From the NCBI GenBank assembly GCA_012103315.1, contig WLWZ01000001.1, positions 310,001 through 374,000 on the forward strand: a stretch of DNA of 64,000 nt. Reading direction: 5' to 3'. Below the pieces are notes generated by a model. It saw only the letters and a program-made list of their open reading frames with translations. It was not told the origin of the DNA and ran no database searches. Position numbers and translations under genes: made by a program. Positions 30,757 to 59,467 of this stretch are shown here, piece by piece. Positions within the stretch are counted from its first letter, which is position 1. Each line of letters starts with the position of its first letter. This DNA is from Alphaproteobacteria bacterium. GTDB lineage: Bacteria; Pseudomonadota; Alphaproteobacteria; MPNO01; UBA2964.

Positions 30757-32490
30757 TTAGGCCGCTTTGCGTCGACGGCGGAACCGCCACAAGCCGAACA
30801 TACCGGCGCCCAGCAAGAACATCGAAGAAGGTTCGGGGACAGCACCGGCATCAGCCACCACAGTAAGTCGTAGAGTCTCTCGTCCAACATTGGCACCGCC
30901 GGCATACGTAAACAGCTCTGAGCTCCACGCGAAACCGGAACCGAGCAATGCCCCGGTAAAATCAAAATTCAGCGTGTTGAGATCGCCGATAATATCGTCT
31001 GCGACCAACACATCGAACGTATCGCCAAGCCCGGCTACAAACCCGGCAAAGAAATCGATATCGATAGCCGCGCCAGCCGCAAGCGTGGCGGTGCCAGCGG
31101 AAACATCGATTACATCATGGCCACCAATCTCAACGCCCGGAGTCAATCCAGCGATCTCAAACAGCGTCGTAGACGATGCGTCGAGATCGAGATTACCGAT
31201 GATACTCATTAGCCCCGGCGAATTGCCTGCACTCAACGTGCCGCCATTTTCAACTGTCACGTCGCTGGTCACCGACCCGTTGAAGGAAACATTGCCGCCA
31301 GAACCTATGGTAACTGTTTCAAAATTTGTGACCTGACTACCACTGATATTGACGCTGCCATTGGTAAAGGTCAGGGCGTCTGTCCCGTTACCGCCATCGA
31401 TGGTCGTGATCGCCGCGGCGCTGCCGCCATTAAATGTGAATGAATCTGTGCCGTCTCCGAGATTGACCGCACCGGTGACCGTCGCACCGGCATTTACCGT
31501 GACATTGGCGGTCGTATCGACGTTAACGGTGCCGTAATTACTGCTATATGTGCCGTTTGAAATGGCGACGCCGGAGCCCGCACTCACATTCGCCCCGCTA
31601 TTGAGGATGATATTAGAGACACCACCGGGCGTAAATCTGTCGGTATGGATTCCTGCAGCAGAGGGCCCAAAACTTGCGCCGTTACCTGCTGTAACTGTGC
31701 CGCTAACCGTAATTGTTGCGGTACCCCCATTGGCCACCGTATCGATACCAGTAGTATTCCCGGTGACAGATGCACCAGACGCAACAGTGATTGTCTGATC
31801 GCCACCGTTGTTGACATCAGCTCTCACGCCAACACCATAGTTGCCTAGCCCGTTTACACTGCCATTGACGGTGATACTCGTATCGCCACCATCGCTAGAT
31901 GTTCTTACTGCCGTTCTCCCCTCTACGGTTCCGTTCACCGTCGTCGTCGACATGCCTCCTGCACGAGCCTCATTAATAATGCCGGAACCACTTGTCGTCC
32001 CGTATGCATTATTGGCGGTGACGGTGACATTGCCTCCAACAGCATTGTTCAGAGCCTGGATCCCAGTTCCGCCGCTGACATCCCCATTAGTGGTAACGGT
32101 CACATCGCCGGTGGCGCCAGATCCAGTATTATTAGCAAAAATACCTCTACTGTTGCTGGCCCCCGTGATGACCGAAGCGTTATTATCAGTGATCGATATC
32201 CCATATTTGCCGTTTTGGACCCAAATCGCGGATTGGCCCGGTGAGTTAATAGTGGGATCGATCCCGAACCCGGGGGATGTTGTTAAAGTAACTGCATTGG
32301 AAGCCCCACTAAAATATTGAGCCACATCGGTCCCGGGATTGGCCGCACCGGAGCAATTATAGACACCGCCGCCGCCGGCTGTGCAGACACCGGCGCGCGC
32401 CGTCCGTGCGCCATAGGCAAAGGCAAGGGATACCAGCGCGGTGGTCGTTGCCAGCTTCGCGCCAAAATTCGTTAGTTTCTCACTATTCAT
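30757..32490 (-). CDS. PEP-CTERM surface protein with beta-helix-like repeats
   Basis: A 577-residue exported protein. Signal peptide ends near ARTARAGVC; a short Cys/Gly segment follows (VCTAGGGGVYNC). Residues ~60-440 are Thr/Asn/Gly/Val-rich repeats of the kind that build beta-helices (repeating TVTVNG-, GGTGIQAL-like turns), as in autotransporter passengers. The end is a PEP-CTERM sorting signal: VPEPSS, a hydrophobic helix (MFLLGAGMFGLWRF) and the basic cluster RRRRKAA. PEP-CTERM signals are processed by exosortase (EpsH) and usually linked to exopolysaccharide; no exosortase is in the window, but a Wzy-like gene is at 3934. Has its own terminator. Confidence 0.88.
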   Translation of the reverse strand: MNSEKLTNFGAKLATTTALVSLAFAYGARTARAGVCTAGGGGVYNCSGAANPGTDVAQYFSGASNAVTLTTSPGFGIDPTINSPGQSAIWVQNGKYGISITDNNASVITGASNSRGIFANNTGSGATGDVTVTTNGDVSGGTGIQALNNAVGGNVTVTANNAYGTTSGSGIINEARAGGMSTTTVNGTVEGRTAVRTSSDGGDTSITVNGSVNGLGNYGVGVRADVNNGGDQTITVASGASVTGNTTGIDTVANGGTATITVSGTVTAGNGASFGPSAAGIHTDRFTPGGVSNIILNSGANVSAGSGVAISNGTYSSNYGTVNVDTTANVTVNAGATVTGAVNLGDGTDSFTFNGGSAAAITTIDGGNGTDALTFTNGSVNISGSQVTNFETVTIGSGGNVSFNGSVTSDVTVENGGTLSAGNSPGLMSIIGNLDLDASSTTLFEIAGLTPGVEIGGHDVIDVSAGTATLAAGAAIDIDFFAGFVAGLGDTFDVLVADDIIGDLNTLNFDFTGALLGSGFAWSSELFTYAGGANVGRETLRLTVVADAGAVPEPSSMFLLGAGMFGLWRFRRRRKAA

Positions 32491-48666: not shown

Positions 48667-48978
48667 TTAATCTGTCTCGAATACCAAATCTTTGACGATT
48701 GTCCGGTTTGGTGGCGGTTCCACCGTCATGCCATCGGTGGCTAAGCACATACAGGTTAGCTGTCGACGACCATTGATCATCATCGAGCAAATGCCGCACA
48801 CCCCGCGCCGACAATCGGAGTTGCGGAACGATAGTGTGCCATCGACGGTGTGATAGACGTGACGGATTGCCTGTAATACGGACAAAGGGCCATCGGACTC
48901 AATGTCATAAGCCTGTAATCGGGGCTCGGTGTCGTGTTTGGGGTCAAAGCGATAAAGCGTGATGTTGAGCTTCTCCAT
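48667..48978 (-). CDS. One-domain 2Fe-2S protein (N-terminal FrdB/SdhB domain only)
   Basis: A 103-residue ferredoxin-like protein matching only the N-terminal plant-type 2Fe-2S domain of succinate dehydrogenase/fumarate reductase iron-sulfur subunits. Cluster ligands C56, C61, C64 and C76 sit in NSDCRRGVCGICS and LTCMC. It stops at VKDLVFETD, just where the normal subunit would go on into the 4Fe-4S/3Fe-4S domain, so two of the three usual clusters are missing. There is no frameshifted remainder downstream (the next gene converges), so the short form looks genuine. It starts directly at the stop of the FrdA-like gene (spacing 0), implying a tight complex or electron shuttle. Confidence 0.88.
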   Translation of the reverse strand: MEKLNITLYRFDPKHDTEPRLQAYDIESDGPLSVLQAIRHVYHTVDGTLSFRNSDCRRGVCGICSMMINGRRQLTCMCLATDGMTVEPPPNRTIVKDLVFETD

Positions 48979-50718
48979 CTATCCGACCTCCGCCAGCGTG
49001 GCGGTATATTCCGGACCCGGTATGCATTCTTTCGTTTCAAATGCCAGAGCATCCCCATTTCCGTCGCGCCGGATGATTATGTTCTGAAGCCAGTTGCCGT
49101 CATCGAGTTCGGGATAATCTTCGCGGTAGTGCGCACCGCGGCTTTCTGTACGCAACAGAGCTGCCCCCGCCATCGCGCGGGCGAACCGGATCATTGCCGT
49201 GACCTCAAGCGCTTCGACCCAGTCGTAATTCCCGATGCGATTGTCTTCCGCCATCGACATGGTTGGGAGGTCTTCACGTTCCATCCGTTCGAACTCGGCG
49301 ATGGTATCGCGCAGGCCATCATCATTACGGACGACCCCGACATAATCATTCATGAGTTTTTGTAATTTTGCCTTGATCACGTTAGGACGCGGTCCAGTAC
49401 GTTTGCGGCTGAGATAGGACGTTATCCGGTCGGCTTCCGCTGCGGCGTCTTTGCTATCTGCCTTACCTGCATTTCCGGCATTGGCAAATGCAGCAGCCTT
49501 GGCCCCGGCACGTTTGCCAAAGACCAGAATCTCGGTCAACGAGTTGCCGCCAATGCGTCCGGCACCATGTGGCCCACCGGAACATTCGCCGACAGCGAAC
49601 AAGCCCGGCACACTCGATTGCGATTGGGTATTAATTTTAATCCCGCCGCACACGTAATGGGCTGCTGCCCCGACCTCGATGGGTTGAGTCATATCGACAC
49701 CGAATTTTTCGAGATATTTGGTTTGCGATGGCAGAGAGTCCATGAGGGTTTCATGGGACACTGATCCGGGGTCAAAGAAAGCGCCACCATGCGGGCTGCC
49801 GCGGCCTTCCCGAACCTCTCCATAGACCGCACGGGCATAAATGTGACGCGCTGGATTGTCGCTGCCCTCGGGGTCGTAGTTGGACAGGAAGGATTCTCCT
49901 TCAGAATTGAACAACGGTTTAGCGCCTTTGGTCAGCAAGTACTGGAAGGTGAAAAGTACGCCGCGCACGGTGGCTGGATGCAGGACTGCATGGCCGAGCA
50001 TCAGCAGAAATTCGATATCAACCAGATCAGCTCCGGCATTCAGCGCCAGCGCGTAGCCGTCGCCGGTAGAATCCGGTGTATTGCTATGGACAGGGAACAG
50101 CTCGCCAGCGCCACCGGTGGCCATAATAATCGCCCCGGCATGGATCTCGACGATCTCACCTTTTTGAAAATCCAGCGCGATGGCACCGCAAACCTTGTCA
50201 CCATCTTTGAGCAATTTCGTGACCAGCATTTCATGCATACGCGGCACGTCGCGTTTATTCATTTCGCGCCGTAATGCCTGCATGATCGGGGTGCCGAGAG
50301 AGTCCCCCTTTTTTATTGAACGCGGATAGGTCTGTGAGGAGTCGAGCTTGCGCTGAACCAGATCGCCATTTTCTTCCCGGTCGAACCTCGCGCCAAACGA
50401 CTCAATATCCTCAACCGCCGCGACTGCCTCGTCGCAAAAAATACGCGCAAGCTGGGGATCAGCGAGGCCATAGCCCCCGCGAATGGTGTCGCCGTAATGC
50501 ACTTCGGGATTATCGCGCGGATCGGCATAGCCGAAGGCAACCTGAAAGCCTGTCACAGCGGTTTGCGTGAGCCCACTTTTGCCGACAATGCCTTTCGACA
50601 ACACCAACACCCGTGCGCCCGCATCATGGGCCGCCACGGCGGCCCTCAGCCCACCACCACCACCGCCGATCACCAGCACATCTGTTTCAATAACTCTGTC
50701 GATGGTTCCGTTACTCAT
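48979..50718 (-). CDS. FAD-dependent fumarate reductase/succinate dehydrogenase-like flavoprotein
   Basis: A 579-residue FrdA/SdhA/AprA-family flavoprotein. FAD motif DVLVIGGGGGGLRAA at ~13-27. The covalent-FAD His of SdhA/FrdA is not in the expected place (GKSGLTQTAVTG), so FAD is probably non-covalent. Active-site landmarks of dicarboxylate enzymes are retained: REGRGSPHGGAFFD, AAHYVCGGI and HGAGRIGGNSL. C-terminal helical domain present with ESRGAHYREDYPELDD. No membrane-anchor genes are nearby. It is the middle gene of an operon: the decarboxylase-like gene ends 21 nt upstream, and the one-domain 2Fe-2S gene follows at once. Substrate unknown. Confidence 0.9.
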   Translation of the reverse strand: MSNGTIDRVIETDVLVIGGGGGGLRAAVAAHDAGARVLVLSKGIVGKSGLTQTAVTGFQVAFGYADPRDNPEVHYGDTIRGGYGLADPQLARIFCDEAVAAVEDIESFGARFDREENGDLVQRKLDSSQTYPRSIKKGDSLGTPIMQALRREMNKRDVPRMHEMLVTKLLKDGDKVCGAIALDFQKGEIVEIHAGAIIMATGGAGELFPVHSNTPDSTGDGYALALNAGADLVDIEFLLMLGHAVLHPATVRGVLFTFQYLLTKGAKPLFNSEGESFLSNYDPEGSDNPARHIYARAVYGEVREGRGSPHGGAFFDPGSVSHETLMDSLPSQTKYLEKFGVDMTQPIEVGAAAHYVCGGIKINTQSQSSVPGLFAVGECSGGPHGAGRIGGNSLTEILVFGKRAGAKAAAFANAGNAGKADSKDAAAEADRITSYLSRKRTGPRPNVIKAKLQKLMNDYVGVVRNDDGLRDTIAEFERMEREDLPTMSMAEDNRIGNYDWVEALEVTAMIRFARAMAGAALLRTESRGAHYREDYPELDDGNWLQNIIIRRDGNGDALAFETKECIPGPEYTATLAEVG

Positions 50719-50739
50719 GTCTTGTCGTCTCTCGCGCCG

Positions 50740-51729
50740 CTAACTATTCCGCACTGACTCAACAAACAAGTCGTCGACGCTCAGCGGTCGGTCCATCAGA
50801 CCCTGATCATCGCAATAGCTCAGAAACGCCTCAAGATTTGTGCGATTGGCTGCAATACCCGACGGCCAGAGATCGGGTGCCATGCGTTTTTGCTGCGCCT
50901 TATAGATATTGGATGTCCAGGCGAGCAGCGCATAGGCCGGATCTTCGTAATATTGATAGGCGATGTCCTTAGACCGGTTCCACATCTCGATCAAGGCGGT
51001 AGGAAGCTCCGGTGTTTTCTCATAGGTATCGCGCCGCATCGCCAATAGATGCATCACCGGGAAATAGCCATATTTCTTGAAGTAGCGTTCATCCTCAGAC
51101 TCTGGATCATCAAACAGACGTCTTACTTTGTCGCCTGCCGCAGCGAGTGATTTTAGGGCTTGCGCAGGTGGTTGCGGGCAAATCATCGCATCGATTTCTC
51201 CCATGGCCAGCATTTCTCCGATGTCGGTATCTTCGGGTATACGCTGGACAGAAACCTCGTCGGGGAACTCAACGGCCAGCTGTTCAGGCCGCATGCAATG
51301 CCAGTTAATATCCCGCCAATCGACACCATAATCCCGTTTGAGATCGCCTTTGGCGAGTACCGACAGAGTGACCTGAAAGGCGGTGATGCCGACATTGCGA
51401 CCAACAAGGTCTTGCGGCGTTTTAATGCCAGAATCGGCGTTGATATAAATCTGGCTCATCGAGAAATAGCGGCGCGGAAAAACCGGGATACCGACCATAG
51501 GGAAGTCTGGGTCACGGGACAAACCCAATATGTAGGAACCCAGCGACATCTCACAGATGTCAAACTCCAGATCGCGCAGCATCCGATGATGCCGGTCGTA
51601 TCCATGACGTCGATCAAGTGTCTCGCCGATCTCCAGGACGTTTAAGTCGATGCCCTCGGGCGCTTCGATCTGCCCGGTAAAGAAAGGCATATGCCGCTCG
51701 TAAAGCTCTAACGCAATTGACAGTTCCAA
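50740..51729 (-). CDS. 4,5-dihydroxyphthalate decarboxylase / NMT1-like protein
   Basis: A 329-residue protein with the periplasmic-binding-protein type II fold, close to 4,5-dihydroxyphthalate decarboxylases and NMT1/THI5-like proteins. Family features: LSIALELYERHMPF, EGIDLNVLEI, LEFDICEMSLGSYI and GRNVGITAFQVTLSVLAKG. No signal peptide, so it is a cytoplasmic enzyme rather than a transporter protein. Start is uncertain: TTG at 51729 has AGGGAGAG at ideal spacing and gives the family N-terminus, while ATGs up to 51753 lack one. First gene of the operon with the FrdA-like and 2Fe-2S genes. Confidence 0.78.
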   Translation of the reverse strand: MELSIALELYERHMPFFTGQIEAPEGIDLNVLEIGETLDRRHGYDRHHRMLRDLEFDICEMSLGSYILGLSRDPDFPMVGIPVFPRRYFSMSQIYINADSGIKTPQDLVGRNVGITAFQVTLSVLAKGDLKRDYGVDWRDINWHCMRPEQLAVEFPDEVSVQRIPEDTDIGEMLAMGEIDAMICPQPPAQALKSLAAAGDKVRRLFDDPESEDERYFKKYGYFPVMHLLAMRRDTYEKTPELPTALIEMWNRSKDIAYQYYEDPAYALLAWTSNIYKAQQKRMAPDLWPSGIAANRTNLEAFLSYCDDQGLMDRPLSVDDLFVESVRNS

Positions 51730-51871
51730 CACTCTCTCCCTCATTTTGAACATACAGGATGCTGTGATGTCCTCGTCCTGTAAAGGTGTGGGCGTGTTTC
51801 TCTACTACCCCTTCTTTAAAGGACTAATGTCGGGCTAGAATTCCTGCGAGTATCATAGGGAGGAAACAGAA

Positions 51872-52741
51872 ATGAAGAACACGGCGATCACCGTGCGCCC
51901 TATGTCGGCCTATACCGGCGCGGAAATTTTCGATGTTGATCTGCGTGAGCCGCTGGAAGAGCAGGCTTATCTTGAAATTCGTCAGGCGATCAATGATTGG
52001 GGCGCTGTTTTCTTTCGCGCCCAGAACCTGACGCCGGCGCAGCAGCTCGCTTTCGCCCGACGGTTCGGAACGGCAGAAGAAGATACGCATGTCTCGAATA
52101 TGACCGGCGTTGATGGCCTGCCCGAGGTCAAGGAAGTCACTAAAGAGGCCGATGACCTGCGGAATATCGGCGGGTTCTGGCATATGGATCAGTCATTCTA
52201 TGATCTGCCCAGCAGCTTCTCAGTCCTGTATGCCCGGGAATTGCCGCCAAACGGCGGTGATACGATGTTTTCGCATCTCAGCGCTGCGTATGACTCTCTG
52301 TCACCCGGGCTACAAAAAACTCTGGAAGGTCTTTCCGGTGTGCATGTCCGCGCCCATGCCGACAGCAGCGGGATCAATTCCGCAGCATCGGGTTTGAGCT
52401 TTGAATATTATGTTGAAAGTGTCGCGCGGTTTGCCGGGATGGAAGCGACCCATCCGCTGGTAGCGATGCACCCCGAGTCAGGCCGCAAGGTCCTCTATTT
52501 CAGCCCGGTCTATACCGACCGGTTTGAGGGTTGGACCCGCGACGAAAGCTTGCCCTTGATGAAATATCTCACCGGTGTTTTGGGCAAGCCTGAACATACC
52601 TGCCGCTTCCGCTGGGAAGAAGGTTCGATGGCGATGTGGGACAACCGCGCCGTCGTTCACTACGCACTTGATGATTACACTGGCCACCGACGGATGATGC
52701 ACCGGGTGACCGTCAACGGTCCGTGGCTGGAGAGGTGTTAG
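51872..52741 (+). CDS. TauD/TfdA-family Fe(II)/2-oxoglutarate dioxygenase (1)
   Basis: A 289-residue oxygenase that couples 2-oxoglutarate decarboxylation to hydroxylation of a small acid, amine or sulfonate. Iron ligands are H104 and D106 (GFWHMDQSF) and H263 (AVVHYA); R274 in RRMMHRVTV lies 11 residues on, as the 2-oxoglutarate Arg does in TauD. Double-stranded beta-helix fold expected, cytoplasmic. ATG after AGGGAGGAAACAGAA. It is divergent from the decarboxylase-like operon by 142 nt and convergent with the aldolase gene. Confidence 0.92.
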   Translation: MKNTAITVRPMSAYTGAEIFDVDLREPLEEQAYLEIRQAINDWGAVFFRAQNLTPAQQLAFARRFGTAEEDTHVSNMTGVDGLPEVKEVTKEADDLRNIGGFWHMDQSFYDLPSSFSVLYARELPPNGGDTMFSHLSAAYDSLSPGLQKTLEGLSGVHVRAHADSSGINSAASGLSFEYYVESVARFAGMEATHPLVAMHPESGRKVLYFSPVYTDRFEGWTRDESLPLMKYLTGVLGKPEHTCRFRWEEGSMAMWDNRAVVHYALDDYTGHRRMMHRVTVNGPWLERC

Positions 52742-52750
52742 GAACGGGAA

Positions 52751-53716
52751 TCACTCCGCAGCTGATTTAACTGCCGCACCGCTATACTTGGCGCGCAGTT
52801 TCTGCCAGCGTTCGGCGCGTGTTTTCATCGCTGTGTCTACCGTATCGGGGATTTCGACGAAGGGCGGGCGCAGCGGGCCGGGGTCGCAATAGCCAGCATA
52901 GCGGATGGCAATCTTGGCGGCGGTCTCGCGCCATGAGCAGTTTGGCTTGGCATCGGTCATTACCGGAGAGATATCGAAATAGATTTCCCGGGCGATGTCA
53001 GTATTACCAGACGTCACTGCGTTGTAGAGCGCGACGAGCGGCTCCGGTCCCATCCAGCTATCGATTGACCAGAACCCTTCCGCACCGAGTTCATGGAACG
53101 GATGGAACTGCATGGTGTTGCAGAACACCGTGATTTTGCCGTTGATGATTTCCTGCAGCTTCATGAATTCCAGCGTGTCGCGATGGCTGTCTTTCATGCC
53201 GATGATGTTGGGTTGTTTGACCAGCTCCTCAAAGGCCGGAACCGTCAGCTTGACGTTATGCAGGGCTGGATTGTGATAGAGCATGATGCCGAGTTTCGGG
53301 AAGCGCTCGGCGATGTCCTTGTAAAATCCGACGGCGTTTTCGATGGTCGAAGGGAAGTAAAACGGTACGCCGACCAGGACACCATACGCACCGATCTCCT
53401 GAGCGAATTCGAGACGCTTCAGGGCCTCGCGCGAATTCAGCGCGGTGCAGCCGACAAACATCGGCACGCGGTTATTATTGATCTCCACCGCGGCGCGGTT
53501 GAGGGTCTGCCATTCTTCCCACAACAAAGTGTGGAACTCACCAAAACTGCCGCAGGTCGAGATCACTCCCGCGCCATCGTCGATCATGCTGTTAAGCGCT
53601 TCCGACAGCCGGTCGAGATCGATAGTCTCGGTGGCATCGATAGACGCGCCATCATCGGTGGTGAAGGCAGGCATCATCGCCATAAAGCCGCTGAGATCAC
53701 TGCTGCTGACCATCAT
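52751..53716 (-). CDS. DapA-superfamily aldolase (NahE/PhdJ hydratase-aldolase-like)
   Basis: A 321-residue class I aldolase. Schiff-base Lys is in NIIGMKDSHRD and the conserved Tyr in IMLYHNPAL. The pyruvate-carboxylate segment is STCGSFGEFHTLLWEEW, closer to the aromatic hydratase-aldolases NahE/PhdJ (which split trans-2'-hydroxybenzylidenepyruvate-type compounds) than to dihydrodipicolinate synthase (GTTGE). Either of the two leading ATGs may be used after GGGGAGAAAC. It lies between two TauD-type dioxygenases on the opposite strand; no dihydrodipicolinate neighbours. A catabolic retro-aldol step releasing pyruvate is the likely role. Confidence 0.85.
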   Translation of the reverse strand: MMVSSSDLSGFMAMMPAFTTDDGASIDATETIDLDRLSEALNSMIDDGAGVISTCGSFGEFHTLLWEEWQTLNRAAVEINNNRVPMFVGCTALNSREALKRLEFAQEIGAYGVLVGVPFYFPSTIENAVGFYKDIAERFPKLGIMLYHNPALHNVKLTVPAFEELVKQPNIIGMKDSHRDTLEFMKLQEIINGKITVFCNTMQFHPFHELGAEGFWSIDSWMGPEPLVALYNAVTSGNTDIAREIYFDISPVMTDAKPNCSWRETAAKIAIRYAGYCDPGPLRPPFVEIPDTVDTAMKTRAERWQKLRAKYSGAAVKSAAE

Positions 53717-53802
53717 GTTTCTCCCCGGTTTTGTTTTGATGGAAATTTCTGCAATTATTATAGGCCTATTTCACGCTTATTGTATGCGGGGCCGGAGTTT
53801 TA

Positions 53803-54669
53803 ATGATGCCAATGACCATTACGCCCTACCAAACGGCGCTCGGTGCCGAGATTACGGGCCTCAAATTGTCTGCCTCCAGTGATGATGCGCTGATCGCGGC
53901 GATCAAAGCGGCGTTGCATGAACATTTGGTGCTGGTGATCCGCGATCAGGACCTGGAACCCGGGGAGCAAGTTGCATTCAGTGAGCGGTTTGGTGAGCTG
54001 GTCGTGCGGGTCTCAGGCGAGTTCTTGCACCCGGACTATCCGCCAGTGCTGATCCTGTCTAACCGTGTGGTCGATGGGCAGTCAGAAGGGGCGACTGATG
54101 CCTATGCCGGGTCGCACTGGCATTCCGATCTGACCTATGCCGAAAAGCCGAGCTTTGGCTCGATGCTGCATGCGCTTGAGGTGGCGGAGGAGGGCGGCGA
54201 TACCGCCTGGGCCAATATGTATGCCGCCTATGATGCTCTGCCGGATGATATCAGACAACGGATTGACGGGCTAAAAGCGATCCATGTTCGTGATCGCCGT
54301 CGTAACCCACGCGCCGGTGTGTCTGATGATTTTGATCGCGACGTAAATAAATATTACGACATCAAAGTGCCGGACTCGGTCCATCCGATGGTACGCACAC
54401 ATCCGGTGACAGGACGCAAAGCCCTCTATGTCTCGCCGCGCTTTACTGTTGCGGTGGATGGCGTCGATGATACCGAGGGCCAGCCCTTGCTCGATGAACT
54501 GTTTGAACATCAAAAGAAGCCGGAATTTATCTTCCAACACAAATGGCGGGTCGGGGACCTGGTGTTCTGGGATAACAGCGCGACAATCCACTTTGCTTGC
54601 GGCGGAATCAAACCACCGGGTGTCCGCAAGCTGCACCGGACGTCGATAGCGGGAAGCGTGCCATACTGA
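53803..54669 (+). CDS. TauD/TfdA-family Fe(II)/2-oxoglutarate dioxygenase (2)
   Basis: A 288-residue second member, only moderately like the one at 51872. Iron ligands H107 and D109 (GSHWHSDLTYAEKPS) and H263 (ATIHFACGG); R275 and R279 in RKLHRTSI are the candidate 2-oxoglutarate arginines. An insertion of PPGV before them lengthens the usual spacing by one. The N-terminus ITPYQTALGAEITGL is the classic TauD opening. Divergent from the aldolase gene by 86 nt. The two dioxygenases and aldolase may treat one substrate stepwise (inference). Confidence 0.92.
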   Translation: MMPMTITPYQTALGAEITGLKLSASSDDALIAAIKAALHEHLVLVIRDQDLEPGEQVAFSERFGELVVRVSGEFLHPDYPPVLILSNRVVDGQSEGATDAYAGSHWHSDLTYAEKPSFGSMLHALEVAEEGGDTAWANMYAAYDALPDDIRQRIDGLKAIHVRDRRRNPRAGVSDDFDRDVNKYYDIKVPDSVHPMVRTHPVTGRKALYVSPRFTVAVDGVDDTEGQPLLDELFEHQKKPEFIFQHKWRVGDLVFWDNSATIHFACGGIKPPGVRKLHRTSIAGSVPY

Positions 54670-54713
54670 CGTCGTAAATTTCTTAGATGACCTACGGGCC
54701 GATTTTATTCGGG

Positions 54714-55382
54714 TCACGCAAACTCTTCATCAGGAGGGTGTCGCGTGAATCGCACGATCAACCAAATGGCAAATGCCAATTCGCCAACCGCCATAAGGAC
54801 TTGCAAGAAGGGTAAAATACTCGATGACCAGAATTGGGCATCAACAAAGAACGAGTTTGCTCCTTCGATTGCCACGTAACTAAGACCAGCCAGCAAAAGG
54901 AGAATTGATACAACTTTTGGGGTAAAGGTCGATTTCCAGCAGATCATACTAAGGAGAACGAGATGACCTCCGAAGACAATGAGGCCATAAGACCATATTT
55001 TCGTGAATGCTTTAAAATTGGCCAAGCCGCTCTCAACATCATCGTTGAACAACAGCATAAAGAGCTGAGCAATCGCGAGAATTAACATCGCGGTGTAGAT
55101 TAGTCTCAATAGAGCTACCGAGGCGGCGAGTTTTTGGTTCGTGTCGCTATATAGTACGTACATGCCGATGGAGACCATGACATCTAGGATTGCGATCAAT
55201 ACCCACGAAGCGATTCCGAATTGAAACAACACCATATTGTGCGTGAGGGCTAGGTGTGTTGCCGTCGCATCATTTTCAACAAAAACCGTCTCGTGTACGT
55301 AACCAACGGCAAATCCCGCGGCTATCGCCATGAGTATGAGCATATAACCGGTGCTCAGTCCCCAGGTCCTCATTTTCGTCAT
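54714..55382 (-). CDS. DUF4386-like membrane protein
   Basis: A 222-residue integral membrane protein with six hydrophobic segments. The pattern (GYMLILMAIAAGFAVGYV, then VLIAILDVMVSIGMYVLY and ICWKSTFTPKVVSILLLLAG) fits DUF4386. No catalytic motif is visible and the function of the family is unknown. Start at ATG 55382 after GGAAAG is preferred; a form five residues longer is possible. It stands alone, converging with the second TauD gene. Confidence 0.75.
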   Translation of the reverse strand: MTKMRTWGLSTGYMLILMAIAAGFAVGYVHETVFVENDATATHLALTHNMVLFQFGIASWVLIAILDVMVSIGMYVLYSDTNQKLAASVALLRLIYTAMLILAIAQLFMLLFNDDVESGLANFKAFTKIWSYGLIVFGGHLVLLSMICWKSTFTPKVVSILLLLAGLSYVAIEGANSFFVDAQFWSSSILPFLQVLMAVGELAFAIWLIVRFTRHPPDEEFA

Positions 55383-55437
55383 TCTACTTTCCATCAAAAG
55401 TACCCGTCATAGTATAAGCTGCATATGCTGTCGGGAA

Positions 55438-56436
55438 TCATTTTGCGAGCGGACCAAAACTCGCATCATAGAAGCGGAGCCAGTTCTCTCCCATGACACC
55501 GGCCACATCCGTGTCGCTGAGGCCTGCGGCACTTAGTCCGGTTTCGATATTGTCGAAATCGAGGTTGCCATGAAACCAATCGGGCATGGGTGGAAATCCA
55601 GCATTGTCGGCTGAGCCTTCGCCATAATCGATGTCCTTGGTCCAGCGGCCAACGCGCATCCACTCAACCACGCTGTCTGGTTGATCCTGGCAAAGATCGC
55701 TGCCGATACCGACATGTTCCGAGCCCATCACCTCGATCAAGCGCGCAACCATCTCGCAGAAACTCTGCAACGTGCAGGCCGCGCCATCGCGCAAATGGTG
55801 AGGGTAAAGAGAAAGTCCGAGCATGCCGCCCGACTGGCTCAGCGCGCGTAACACGTTATCGGACTTGTTGCGTAATGCCGCGTGCCAGAAAGCGGGGTTG
55901 GCATGGGTAATGGCAATAGGGCGTTCTGAAAGCTCTATCGCTTCCAGGGTCGAGCGCTCGGCGGAGTGGCTCATATCGATCACCAGTCCGACCCGGTTCA
56001 TTTCCTTTATGACCTCGCGGCCCATGCGGGTAATGCCAGGGTCTTCGGCTTCGTAGCAACCGGTCGCCAGAAGGGACTGGTTATTATAGCTAAGCTGCAT
56101 AAAGCGCACGCCGAGGGTATGAACGACTTCCACCAGCCCGATATCGTCTTCGATCGGTGATGGGTTCTGGAACCCAAAGAAAATAGCGGTGCGGCCGGAT
56201 TCCCGGGCACGGCGGACATCATCACCAGTGCGGCCATGGAAGATCAGCTCGGGGAAACGTTCAAACCAGCTATTCCAAACTTCGATGTTGTGGACGACTT
56301 CGCGAAAGTTCTCGTGATAGGCGATGGTGACATGGACTGCATCAACACCGCCTTTGCGCATCTCACGGAATATTTTTTCCGACCAGTTGGCATATTGCAG
56401 GCAATCGATGCGATGTGCGCCAATCACGTCGTTCAT
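55438..56436 (-). CDS. M19 (renal dipeptidase-like) membrane dipeptidase
   Basis: A 332-residue zinc dipeptidase-family protein. Family blocks: MQLSYNNQSLLATGCYEAED (with the metal-bridging Glu region), LVIDMSHSAE, AITHANPAF and HVGIGSDLCQD. The N-terminal HxD metal motif (DGHND in most members) is replaced by AHRIDCLQ, with H8 and D11 three apart, so metal binding may differ. No signal peptide. Start overlaps the RidA stop by 4 nt, so they are translationally coupled. D-Ala dipeptides, or an amide in a catabolic pathway, are possible substrates. Confidence 0.85.
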   Translation of the reverse strand: MNDVIGAHRIDCLQYANWSEKIFREMRKGGVDAVHVTIAYHENFREVVHNIEVWNSWFERFPELIFHGRTGDDVRRARESGRTAIFFGFQNPSPIEDDIGLVEVVHTLGVRFMQLSYNNQSLLATGCYEAEDPGITRMGREVIKEMNRVGLVIDMSHSAERSTLEAIELSERPIAITHANPAFWHAALRNKSDNVLRALSQSGGMLGLSLYPHHLRDGAACTLQSFCEMVARLIEVMGSEHVGIGSDLCQDQPDSVVEWMRVGRWTKDIDYGEGSADNAGFPPMPDWFHGNLDFDNIETGLSAAGLSDTDVAGVMGENWLRFYDASFGPLAK

Positions 56437-56921
56437 GATGATTTTGGCGTGACAGGGTTGCGCAATGCGACGACGACATCGATCAAGACGGGCGAATGGC
56501 GGGGTAGGCTTCTGGCACCGATAACTGAACGAGAATGCCGTCCTGCATCGCCGAACGTGTCCATAAAGACGCCGGAGACAACATCAGCGATATCGGAATT
56601 TTGTTCGAACCCGTCGGCGTGCGCGACATAGCAATTGAGTTGCAGAATTCGTTCGATATTCTCTAATCCGCCCGCCGAATGATTTAACCAGGCGAGGGCC
56701 TGCTGGGCACAAAGACGTCCGGCGTCTTTCGCCTCATCCAGCGAGATCGTGTCTCCCACCAAGCCGGTATAGGCCATGACGTTGCCATCAAGCTTTGGAA
56801 TTTGCCCGGCGAGATAGGCGGTGCGTTCATGTACGGTAATGGGGTCGTAGGCGTAAATCGTGGGCTCAGGGTTGGGAAGAGAGTGCCCTAAAACGTTACT
56901 CGTGTTTGCGCTATCACTCAT
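56433..56921 (-). CDS. RidA/YjgF-family protein
   Basis: A 162-residue member of the Rid superfamily, which hydrolyses reactive enamine/imine intermediates to oxo acids and ammonia. Seen: YLAGQIPKLDG, QQALAWLNHSAGGLENI and the C-terminal GARSLPRHSPVLIDVVVAL with the conserved Arg-Ser/Pro region. Longer than RidA itself (~128), like the Rid1-3 clades with an N-terminal extension. Start MSDSANTS at 56921. Coupled to the M19 dipeptidase; an enamine-forming enzyme acting next to it is not obvious. Confidence 0.88.
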   Translation of the reverse strand: MSDSANTSNVLGHSLPNPEPTIYAYDPITVHERTAYLAGQIPKLDGNVMAYTGLVGDTISLDEAKDAGRLCAQQALAWLNHSAGGLENIERILQLNCYVAHADGFEQNSDIADVVSGVFMDTFGDAGRHSRSVIGARSLPRHSPVLIDVVVALRNPVTPKSS

Positions 56922-57126
56922 TTTCAATTTCCACTTGGATCGCAAAATGTACAGATAAGTAATACACCAGCGATCACCCGCGAACGCAATAAAGCCGATA
57001 GAAATCGACCGCGCTTAGATTATCTTTGGCGTGTGGGAAAATCATGCGTTGCCGTAGACCCCCCTAAAAAAGAGGCTAAAATCCTTGCACAAATAACTTT
57101 CAGAAAAATCTGTGGAGGCTTTTGGC

Positions 57127-58197
57127 ATGACTGTTTATTTTAATAACGTGCATGAGATGTTGCTCATGGCGCGGCGGAATTTGAGCCAGGATAACTGGGA
57201 TTATATCAACGGCGCGGCAGAGACCGAGACCAGCATGCGGCGCAATCGCATGGCGATTGATAGTCTCGCTTTCCGGCCACGGGTGTGCCGCGATGTTCGG
57301 GAGGTTGATACCAGCACGACGTTTCTTGGCGACAAGATTCGTATCCCCGTTCTTTTGGCGCCGATGGGTAGCATTCATGGTTGGACAGAAAATGGCGCCA
57401 ACGATGTCGATACGGCGGCGGAAGAATTTGGCACGATCAACTTTATTAGTACGGTCACCCTGCCCAGTCTTGAAGAGATCGCCGCCAATAGCCCCCATCC
57501 CAAATCGTTTCAGATATATGTGCGGGGCGATGATGACTGGATCAAGGCGTTGGCAAAGCGCGCCGTCGATGCGGGTTACAAATCAATCACCCTGACGGTC
57601 GATTCCTCGTTCTATGGCAACCGCGAGCGGTTGAGCCCCAAGCAGTTGGCGCTCCGCAATGTACCGGAACGCGATTTTCAGAAGGGTATTACTTGGGACA
57701 CCGTCAAGATGGTCCAGGACACGATTGGTGATGTGCCGTTCGTTGTGAAGGGCATCATGACAGCAGAGGATGCCGCGATTGCCGTCGAGCATAAAGTCGA
57801 TTGCATCTATATCTCGAACCATGGTGGACGCCAACTCGATCAGGTCTATGGCAACATTGATACGCTACCGGAGATCGTTGCGGCGGTAGATGGCAAAACC
57901 CAGGTGATCATCGATGGCGGGTTTACGCGCGCCGGCGATATGCTCAAAGCTATTGCGCTTGGGGCAGATGCGGTCGCGATTGGTCGATTGCAGGCCTGGG
58001 CGCTGGGTGCCGGTGGTTCCGATGGGCTAGTGAAATGCCTCGAACTATTGGAGATCGAAATTGAACGGACCATGGGGCTCCTCGGCGTGACGAGCCTCGA
58101 CCAGCTGGACGCGTCCTACGTTGGTCCGGCGATGCCAGTGCGTTTGCCGCACGAGCATAGTGCCTTCCCCCATCTTCCGGATGGCAGAATCCAGTAA
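57127..58197 (+). CDS. FMN-dependent alpha-hydroxy-acid oxidase/dehydrogenase
   Basis: A 356-residue TIM-barrel flavoenzyme of the glycolate oxidase/lactate dehydrogenase/mandelate dehydrogenase family: 2-hydroxy acid to 2-oxo acid. Seen: DYINGAAETETSMRRN, LLAPMGSIHG, FQIYVRGDDDW, VVKGI with the FMN Lys, and the active-site YISNHGGRQLD with the catalytic His followed by GGFTRAGD and the GRLQAW block. ATG at 57127 follows GGAGG by 8 nt; a GTG five codons upstream would consume the ribosome site. Followed by the amidohydrolase after 46 nt. Confidence 0.92.
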   Translation: MTVYFNNVHEMLLMARRNLSQDNWDYINGAAETETSMRRNRMAIDSLAFRPRVCRDVREVDTSTTFLGDKIRIPVLLAPMGSIHGWTENGANDVDTAAEEFGTINFISTVTLPSLEEIAANSPHPKSFQIYVRGDDDWIKALAKRAVDAGYKSITLTVDSSFYGNRERLSPKQLALRNVPERDFQKGITWDTVKMVQDTIGDVPFVVKGIMTAEDAAIAVEHKVDCIYISNHGGRQLDQVYGNIDTLPEIVAAVDGKTQVIIDGGFTRAGDMLKAIALGADAVAIGRLQAWALGAGGSDGLVKCLELLEIEIERTMGLLGVTSLDQLDASYVGPAMPVRLPHEHSAFPHLPDGRIQ

Positions 58198-58243
58198 AAT
58201 ATCATATAATTACACAATAAAAGAGCGGTTAAGGGAGTGAGAA

Positions 58244-59467
58244 ATGGAACTACCGAGTAGCGATAAGTTCTATTCGATGAGTGTCGAGTCGATGGACACC
58301 AGCAAGCTACTGAAGAATGCAGCGCGCCAGCGGGATGCCAGAAAGTTCGATACGTTTCCCATTATTGATTGCGACTCGCATCATTATGAGAGCGAGTCGG
58401 CGGCGGAGATTATCGAGTTTCTCGATGATCCAGTCATTAAGCAACTCGCCGAAAGCGAGAAATCACGTGGCAAACCCGCCGGTATTTTTGGTGGCGGCCG
58501 GATCGGCTATCAGGATCGTGGTGGTCGCATCACCCGCTATCCGTTGCGCCGCACTGAACAAACACCTGGCGATGGTGAACACAGGACATCCCATATTACC
58601 CATCGCTGGATGGACGCCATGGGTGTCGATTATACCTGCCTTTTCCCGGGGCCGATGTTAGGGCTCGGTCTACATCCTGAACCGGAGATCGAATACCGTT
58701 TGGCCAAGGCCTATAACCGCTGGCTGGTTGAAACCGTGCTACCCAATTCGCCACGGATCAAGGCGTTGATTTGTTTGCCGTTCAATCATCATCGCGGGTC
58801 CTATGAGATTATTGAAGAGTTTGGTGATCACAAGGATGTCGCCGGGTTCTGCGTCGCATCGGTTCGTGACACGGCCGTGCACTCTGATGATCTGATGAAG
58901 TGTTATTCTCTGATGGAAGAGATGGGTAAGCCTTTGTCATTCCATTCCGGCACCAACTGGAGCGGATCGCATCTGCGTCATTCGAGCCGATTTATCGCCG
59001 TCCATTCGCTGTCATTCCCCTGGTACGTCATGGTGCATGTTGCCAACTGGGTGACCAACGGGCTGAACGAACGGTTCCCAAAGTTGAAGGTTATCTGGGC
59101 CGAAGGTGGTCTTGCCTGGATCCCGTTCCTAATGCAGCGGCTCGATCATGAATATATGATGCGGACCTCAGAAGCGGCGGGGCTCAAGAAGCTGCCATCG
59201 GAATATATGAAAGACATGTTTTACAGCACGCAGCCTTGCGAAGCGATGCACCCAGAACAGCTTGAACATACGTTTGAATTGATCGATGCGGAAAACACAT
59301 TGCTCTATGCGTCGGATTATCCCCATTGGGATATGGATGTTCCGAGCGTGCTTTACGATCTGCCGTTCCTTGATGAAAAACAGAAGCGTAAAATCCTCGC
59401 AGAGAATTCAGCAGAGGTTTTTGATATCGATTACAGTGATCGCTATCCCGACTATAAGCCGCTCTGA
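58244..59467 (+). CDS. Amidohydrolase_2-family protein (ACMSD/decarboxylase-like)
   Basis: A 407-residue TIM-barrel metalloenzyme of the amidohydrolase-2 family, which includes ACMSD and 5-carboxyvanillate or gamma-resorcylate decarboxylases and many unknowns. N-terminal metal motif is IIDCDSHHYE, then GKPLSFHSGTNW with a His ligand and YASDYPHWDMD with the late Asp. The family's usual DxHxH reads DSHHYE. Long N-terminal 35-residue leader. Likely operon partner of the FMN hydroxy-acid oxidase. Decarboxylation or hydrolysis of an aromatic or cyclic acid is a guess. Followed by a terminator. Confidence 0.86.
   Translation: MELPSSDKFYSMSVESMDTSKLLKNAARQRDARKFDTFPIIDCDSHHYESESAAEIIEFLDDPVIKQLAESEKSRGKPAGIFGGGRIGYQDRGGRITRYPLRRTEQTPGDGEHRTSHITHRWMDAMGVDYTCLFPGPMLGLGLHPEPEIEYRLAKAYNRWLVETVLPNSPRIKALICLPFNHHRGSYEIIEEFGDHKDVAGFCVASVRDTAVHSDDLMKCYSLMEEMGKPLSFHSGTNWSGSHLRHSSRFIAVHSLSFPWYVMVHVANWVTNGLNERFPKLKVIWAEGGLAWIPFLMQRLDHEYMMRTSEAAGLKKLPSEYMKDMFYSTQPCEAMHPEQLEHTFELIDAENTLLYASDYPHWDMDVPSVLYDLPFLDEKQKRKILAENSAEVFDIDYSDRYPDYKPL

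Follow-up and report, generated by a model that had tools for sequence, protein, structure and literature searches.

The window, a 64,000-nucleotide (nt) stretch of an alphaproteobacterial contig (WLWZ01000001.1, positions 310,001 to 374,000), carries three consecutive genes encoding a 4,5-dihydroxyphthalate-decarboxylase-like (PhtD-like) protein, a flavoprotein of the FrdA/SdhA type and a one-domain 2Fe-2S protein. The reading we favour, with a probability of roughly 0.6, is that the last two form a soluble two-subunit oxidoreductase, in which electrons pass between flavin adenine dinucleotide (FAD), a 2Fe-2S cluster and a soluble carrier, and which acts on a carboxylate other than succinate. 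The PhtD-like protein would be a partner that is usually co-transcribed with the pair and dispensable to it. An earlier note on this DNA, made from the letters alone, had described the genes, their strand, their order and their spacing correctly, and had proposed a soluble oxidoreductase for a cyclic or dicarboxylic acid. The soluble FrdA-type enzyme with a 2Fe-2S-only partner is supported by what follows, whereas a succinate- or fumarate-like dicarboxylate as substrate is not, half of the corresponding pocket being lost.

The 2Fe-2S protein has a single Pfam match, to nearly the whole of the Fer2_3 domain (82.6 bits, E 2.4e-23), and its top matches in the PDB fall on the first ~100 residues of SdhB/FrdB. 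It contains the cysteines C56, C61, C64 and C76, plus an extra C78, and stops after 103 residues, where the 4Fe-4S domain would start, as the earlier note had it. The 4Fe-4S motif CxxCxxCxxxC is absent from every frame up to 700 nt downstream, both in the window and at six homologous loci. The same length is found in the homologs at loci L024-L028 and L056, with a homologous stretch at L058, and the cluster cysteines are conserved within the clade (hereafter clade 1) down to 71% identity. Pairwise ratios of non-synonymous to synonymous substitution (dN/dS), which are rough because dS is near saturation, lie at 0.02-0.07 for the 2Fe-2S protein, 0.03-0.07 for the flavoprotein and 0.04-0.09 for the PhtD-like protein; all three genes are under strong purifying selection. 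Because homologous loci share the one-domain form and no hidden 4Fe-4S motif lies downstream, this form is genuine. It is also rare among the best-scoring matches: a profile of one-domain proteins matched 289 of 299 proteobacterial genomes, and among the roughly 150 matches listed, which reach down to an E of about 5e-18, just three frames are shorter than 200 residues, two in the window's own genome and one in genome G668. A frameshifted or truncated FrdB was considered and ruled out on the missing downstream motif at all seven loci, on the purifying selection and on the next gene, a DUF3179 gene on the opposite strand whose end lies only 3 nt away. Among the top matches of a search of plasmids for one-domain partners, the three examined are all full-length. 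On a Natribaculum luteum plasmid (L157:2205-4729), an FAD-binding protein precedes a full-length iron-sulfur subunit, and the annotation shows no anchor gene alongside.

The flavoprotein and 2Fe-2S genes are closely joined. The TAG stop of the former directly abuts the ATG of the latter in the same frame, and this gap of 0 nt recurs at all seven trio loci with the stop variously TAA, TAG or TGA; at L058 the gap is 1 nt. A junction held at 0 nt despite changing stop codons implies coupled, stoichiometric synthesis rather than read-through, pointing to translational coupling, and a read-through fusion of the two in-frame genes is not favoured since the stop codon varies freely. Upstream, 21 nt separate the stop of the PhtD-like gene from the flavoprotein ATG. 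For the start of the PhtD-like gene the candidates are ATG at 51753 or ATG at 51744, the earlier note having taken TTG at 51729.

The full trio occurs in five genomes of one genus (G000, G001, G002, G004 and G007), in G010, which belongs to another genus of the same family and in which the flanks of the trio differ, and in G767 (locus L056), a metagenome-assembled genome (MAG) whose kinship is not given. This recurrence in six genomes beyond the window's own is more than a chance neighbourhood. The trio is, however, not an obligate unit, and here the single operon of the earlier note has to be loosened. In G003, a 98% complete genome of the same genus, the syntenic locus (L147:5148-9319) has the GMC oxidoreductase, the DUF3179 gene and a PhtD-like gene (88% identical), while the flavoprotein and 2Fe-2S genes are cleanly missing, the DUF3179 and PhtD-like stops lying about 28 nt apart. 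The rest of the G003 genome yielded no clade-1 flavoprotein; loss is the simplest reading, since the outgroup G010 carries the trio. Conversely, a Rhodospirillales MAG (L058, genome G766) carries both genes of the pair, with identities of 69% and 71%, preceded by dienelactone-hydrolase-like and DAO-family proteins, and contains no PhtD-like match at E 1e-90. In G010 a 226-nt non-coding insert (L027:3214-3439) parts the PhtD-like and flavoprotein genes. As the PhtD-like gene and the pair each occur alone, the pair is the module and the PhtD-like gene a frequent yet separable companion. Clade 1 is narrow: among 385 genomes sampled evenly across the class only two have its flavoprotein, both of the window's genus, and a 398-genome sample of the phylum contains none beyond the window's own genome. 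The carriers are marine Alphaproteobacteria that have not been cultured.

The flavoprotein has the FAD_binding_2 and Succ_DH_flav_C domains of a complex II flavoprotein, and its closest PDB match is SdhA of Mycobacterium smegmatis Sdh1 (7d6v). Its 579 residues include no added domain, an N-terminal domain for covalent flavin mononucleotide (FMN) or cytochrome being absent. Among NCBIfam models TfrA is the best, far below its cut-off, and NadB is also among the top matches; neither cut-off is reached. We mapped the active site by aligning the flavoprotein to the genome's own SdhA, the equivalents being given in E. coli SdhA numbering. R306 (Arg286), H354 (His354), H384 (His394), R388 (Arg399), S393 (Ser404) and F112 (Phe119) are retained, the catalytic R306, H354 and R388 among them. 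L241 replaces His242 and F258 replaces Glu255, the residues for the second carboxylate, and both replacements agree across the clade-1 members aligned. Of the fumarate/succinate motifs that the earlier note saw as kept, the R306, H354 and R388 half is thus present and the His/Glu half is not. The active site therefore appears only half fumarate-like, and because only this half of the pocket is retained, a succinate- or fumarate-like dicarboxylate bound in the usual mode is, on the alignment, unlikely. The position of the flavinylated His45 is taken by Gly49/Leu50, so a covalent link there is not expected and the FAD is predicted to be held non-covalently, as had been supposed.

A comparable pocket is described in urocanate reductase (UrdA), where R411, R560 and H520 bind the carboxylate, Tyr373 sits at the fumarate His position and Glu377/378 are lost; fumarate reductase activity is absent, and a Tyr373-to-His change brings a low level of it (PMC7921117). 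The flavoprotein has the same split, with the carboxylate half retained, the second His replaced and the Glu lost. By analogy, its pocket would bind one carboxylate in the customary manner and accommodate a bulkier or less polar group beyond.

A single-chain model of the flavoprotein joined to the 2Fe-2S protein, in which the TAG was read as Gly, reached a mean predicted local distance difference test score (pLDDT) of 86.8 and a predicted template modelling score (pTM) of 0.82, figures that include no interface measure. Confidence is high over the flavoprotein, and the top structural matches in the PDB are SdhA/FrdA chains, with M. smegmatis Sdh1 first. A viral fold library returned mostly general FAD-protein matches. 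None of the three trio proteins has a transmembrane-like segment and, in agreement with the earlier note, no membrane-anchor gene adjoins the pair.

We propose that the flavoprotein and the 103-residue protein form a soluble heterodimer derived from complex II. R388 and H354 would hold one carboxylate of the substrate, whose distal part would be larger or less polar, as in urocanate reductase, because Leu and Phe take the place of its second carboxylate-binding half. R306 would act as proton donor or acceptor while hydride moves between the substrate and N5 of the non-covalent FAD, and single electrons would pass between FAD and the lone 2Fe-2S cluster. As neither the membrane anchor nor the 4Fe-4S/3Fe-4S wire is present, the cluster would have no direct exchange with quinone and would trade electrons with a soluble carrier of the ferredoxin, electron-transfer flavoprotein or cytochrome type. 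In the SdhA/FrdA family, reductases and oxidases typically bind FAD non-covalently, which would suit such a direction; dehydrogenation would fit a catabolic setting. For most lineages we envisage that a PhtD-like cytosolic enzyme, probably a decarboxylase, is co-transcribed and carries out an adjacent reaction in that pathway, the pair also working without it. A cyclic or aromatic acid as substrate is guesswork, the only hints coming from the family of the decarboxylase and from the neighbourhoods of its paralogs.

The PhtD-like protein has no Pfam match. Its only PDB sequence match is the 4,5-dihydroxyphthalate decarboxylase 9jp7 of Comamonas testosteroni KF-1 (E 5.3e-51), with which it shares ~31% identity and the family-invariant Glu, Arg and His. 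Its model (pLDDT 92.5) fits 9jp7 with a template modelling (TM) score of 0.83-0.91, against ~0.5 for periplasmic binding proteins and Thi5 (Foldseek), so that the family named for the first gene by the earlier note is supported in sequence and in fold. A periplasmic solute-binding protein is not favoured, given this far better fit and no signal peptide apparent by eye. In contrast to 9jp7, no phthalate cluster was recognised here, neither a phthalate dioxygenase nor a dihydrodiol dehydrogenase being seen among the neighbours examined around the gene, and the decarboxylase activity is putative. The PhtD-like family has 18 members in the window's 4.1-Mb genome, 17 of them within loci L083-L097. 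Several of these paralogs adjoin Rieske-type dioxygenase, CoxL-like or TauD-like genes, families recognised by eye, which fits a family serving the catabolism of aromatic and other acids.

How far these observations favour a soluble oxidoreductase of a non-succinate carboxylate depends on the alternatives. Were the trio an obligate system for a phthalate-like cyclic acid, with the pair dehydrogenating or reducing a ring acid that the PhtD-like enzyme decarboxylates, one could account for its presence in seven genomes, the match to a solved 4,5-dihydroxyphthalate decarboxylase and the settings of the paralogs; yet the pair is absent from G003, where the PhtD-like gene and the flanks persist, no PhtD-like match at the threshold above accompanies the pair of L058/G766, and in G010 the genes stand 226 nt apart, making such a system unlikely. 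It is equally hard to see the pair as an ordinary soluble fumarate reductase or succinate oxidoreductase that has shed its membrane parts and still uses succinate or fumarate, an explanation we rate as decidedly improbable. The overall similarity to SdhA/FrdA, TfrA as best (if far sub-threshold) model, the catalytic Arg and the one carboxylate-binding half would agree with it; on the other side, the His242 and Glu255 equivalents are lost in the aligned clade-1 members, covalent FAD is not expected and the same genome encodes a complete SdhAB. The same residue losses accompany the lost fumarate activity of urocanate reductase (PMC7921117).

An enzyme resembling L-aspartate oxidase or thiol:fumarate reductase, for which the 2Fe-2S protein would be merely structural or regulatory, is very improbable. 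NadB and TfrA are among the top NCBIfam matches and NadB binds FAD non-covalently, but NadB has an intact dicarboxylate pocket and lacks an Fe-S partner, TfrB has extra Fe-S/HdrB-like domains that the 103-residue protein lacks, the four cluster cysteines are conserved in the clade and no cut-off of either model is reached. The thought that the 2Fe-2S gene is what remains of a truncated frdB now being lost draws on its end at the start of the second domain and has almost no probability left: it is already contradicted by conservation, namely the dN/dS of 0.02-0.07, the 103-residue length and cluster cysteines kept in homologs down to 71% identity, and an analogous one-domain partner occurs in a second clade described below. 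A full-length FrdB encoded elsewhere, which the earlier note had raised as a possible partner, is also unlikely. The window's genome has three strong Fer2_3 genes, each adjoining its own flavoprotein, and its sole full-length SdhB lies next to its own SdhA on contig C20, accounting for the tricarboxylic acid cycle enzyme. For the soluble oxidoreductase, several points count on the negative side. Association of its subunits is deduced from the coupled genes and from homology to FrdAB; the assignment of F258 is alignment-based, and one alignment sets Q259/Y260 opposite Thr254/Glu255, with no Glu there in either; the cluster loop is poorly modelled in the single chain (residues 632-642, pLDDT <50); and the link to a PhtD-like pathway is weakened by G003, which retains that gene under constraint without the pair.

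Set against known systems, the flavoprotein resembles the SdhA of M. smegmatis Sdh1, a class F complex II, in sequence (~36% identity), fold (TM 0.76/0.86) and a shared insertion before the Thr/Glu region. Sdh1 differs in having the catalytic His and the Thr-Glu, a two-domain iron-sulfur subunit and a membrane subunit. UrdA and other soluble flavocytochrome-c-like alkenoate reductases share with the flavoprotein of the window the retained carboxylate-binding Arg/His and catalytic Arg and the replaced second-carboxylate His/Glu (PMC7921117), whereas UrdA is one polypeptide with its own N-terminal FMN domain, has no 2Fe-2S partner and is only distantly similar in sequence. The 103-residue protein is homologous to the N-terminal 2Fe-2S domain of SdhB/FrdB and wholly lacks their C-terminal cluster domain, which carries electrons to quinone. 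Without a two-domain subunit bearing 2Fe-2S, 4Fe-4S and 3Fe-4S clusters, an anchor with its quinone site or the His for covalent FAD, the pair is not a complex II, and probably acts like its FAD-to-2Fe-2S half. Passages of a recent review of complex II set out six membrane-bound classes and soluble SdhA homologs without an iron-sulfur subunit, and describe no 2Fe-2S-only partner (PMC10238741). A literature search found no paper describing a soluble flavoprotein/2Fe-2S-only pair. If such a pair is conserved, the FAD-to-2Fe-2S half of complex II would be able to work as a stand-alone soluble redox module, and would have been turned to other acids. For one-domain genes of this sort, a label like 'succinate dehydrogenase iron-sulfur subunit', when assigned automatically, is misleading.

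A second pair of this type (clade 2) is encoded in the window's own genome (C20:73.1-75.1 kb). Clade 2 is widespread in the order, with the 2Fe-2S partner adjacent at nearly all loci where the flank is covered. Like the pair in the window, it consists of an FrdA-like flavoprotein followed immediately by a one-domain 2Fe-2S protein; unlike it, the genes overlap, the flavoprotein (~35% identical) has Trp for Phe119 and Asn for His394 in its pocket, and the loci examined show a link to CoxL-like genes and none to PhtD-like genes. In several loci the pair faces or follows an orphan CoxL-like gene, recognised by eye, and it might serve as redox partner of a CoxL-like molybdoenzyme. Clades 1 and 2 each have full support in an unrooted tree, in which a supported split sets both, plus one long-branch sequence, apart from flavoproteins with full-length iron-sulfur subunits such as SdhA; a shared origin of the two clades is possible. 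Tentatively, and with somewhat less than even confidence, the two may represent a separate undescribed class of soluble FrdA-type/2Fe-2S-only heterodimers that perform complex-II chemistry on non-succinate carboxylates, with electrons delivered to soluble carriers or, for clade 2, exchanged with a CoxL-like molybdenum enzyme. The clade-2 pair and an orphan CoxL/xanthine-dehydrogenase-large-like gene lie together at L066:6694-11156 (C20:70.7-75.2 kb of the window's own genome) and at L074:6317-10700. In G010 the clade-2 pair directly follows a CoxL/xanthine-dehydrogenase-large-like gene in a single operon.

Table 1. Features of the trio locus, in window positions.
Feature	Position	Strand	Remarks
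4,5-dihydroxyphthalate-decarboxylase-like (PhtD-like) gene	50740..51753	minus	337 residues; first of the trio; sequence and fold match to 9jp7
FrdA/SdhA-type flavoprotein gene	48979..50718	minus	579 residues; identified by Pfam, PDB and active-site mapping
One-domain 2Fe-2S protein gene	48667..48978	minus	103 residues; Fer2_3 only, the N-terminal domain of SdhB/FrdB
TAG/ATG stop/start junction of flavoprotein and 2Fe-2S genes	48976..48981	minus	0 nt, in frame

Neighbours of the trio in the window include two TauD-family dioxygenases, a DHDPS-family lyase, an FMN-dependent dehydrogenase, an amidohydrolase, a TctC-like protein and a GMC oxidoreductase. Relatives show synteny for several of these genes, and most of the neighbours persist in G003, which has no pair. 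The two TauD-family dioxygenases, the FMN-dependent dehydrogenase and the amidohydrolase fall at 51872-59467, near the trio, in a region with synteny in L056 and L065 that is possibly a conserved catabolic block. Farther off, at 30757-32490, the window encodes a protein of 577 residues bearing a PEP-CTERM sorting motif.

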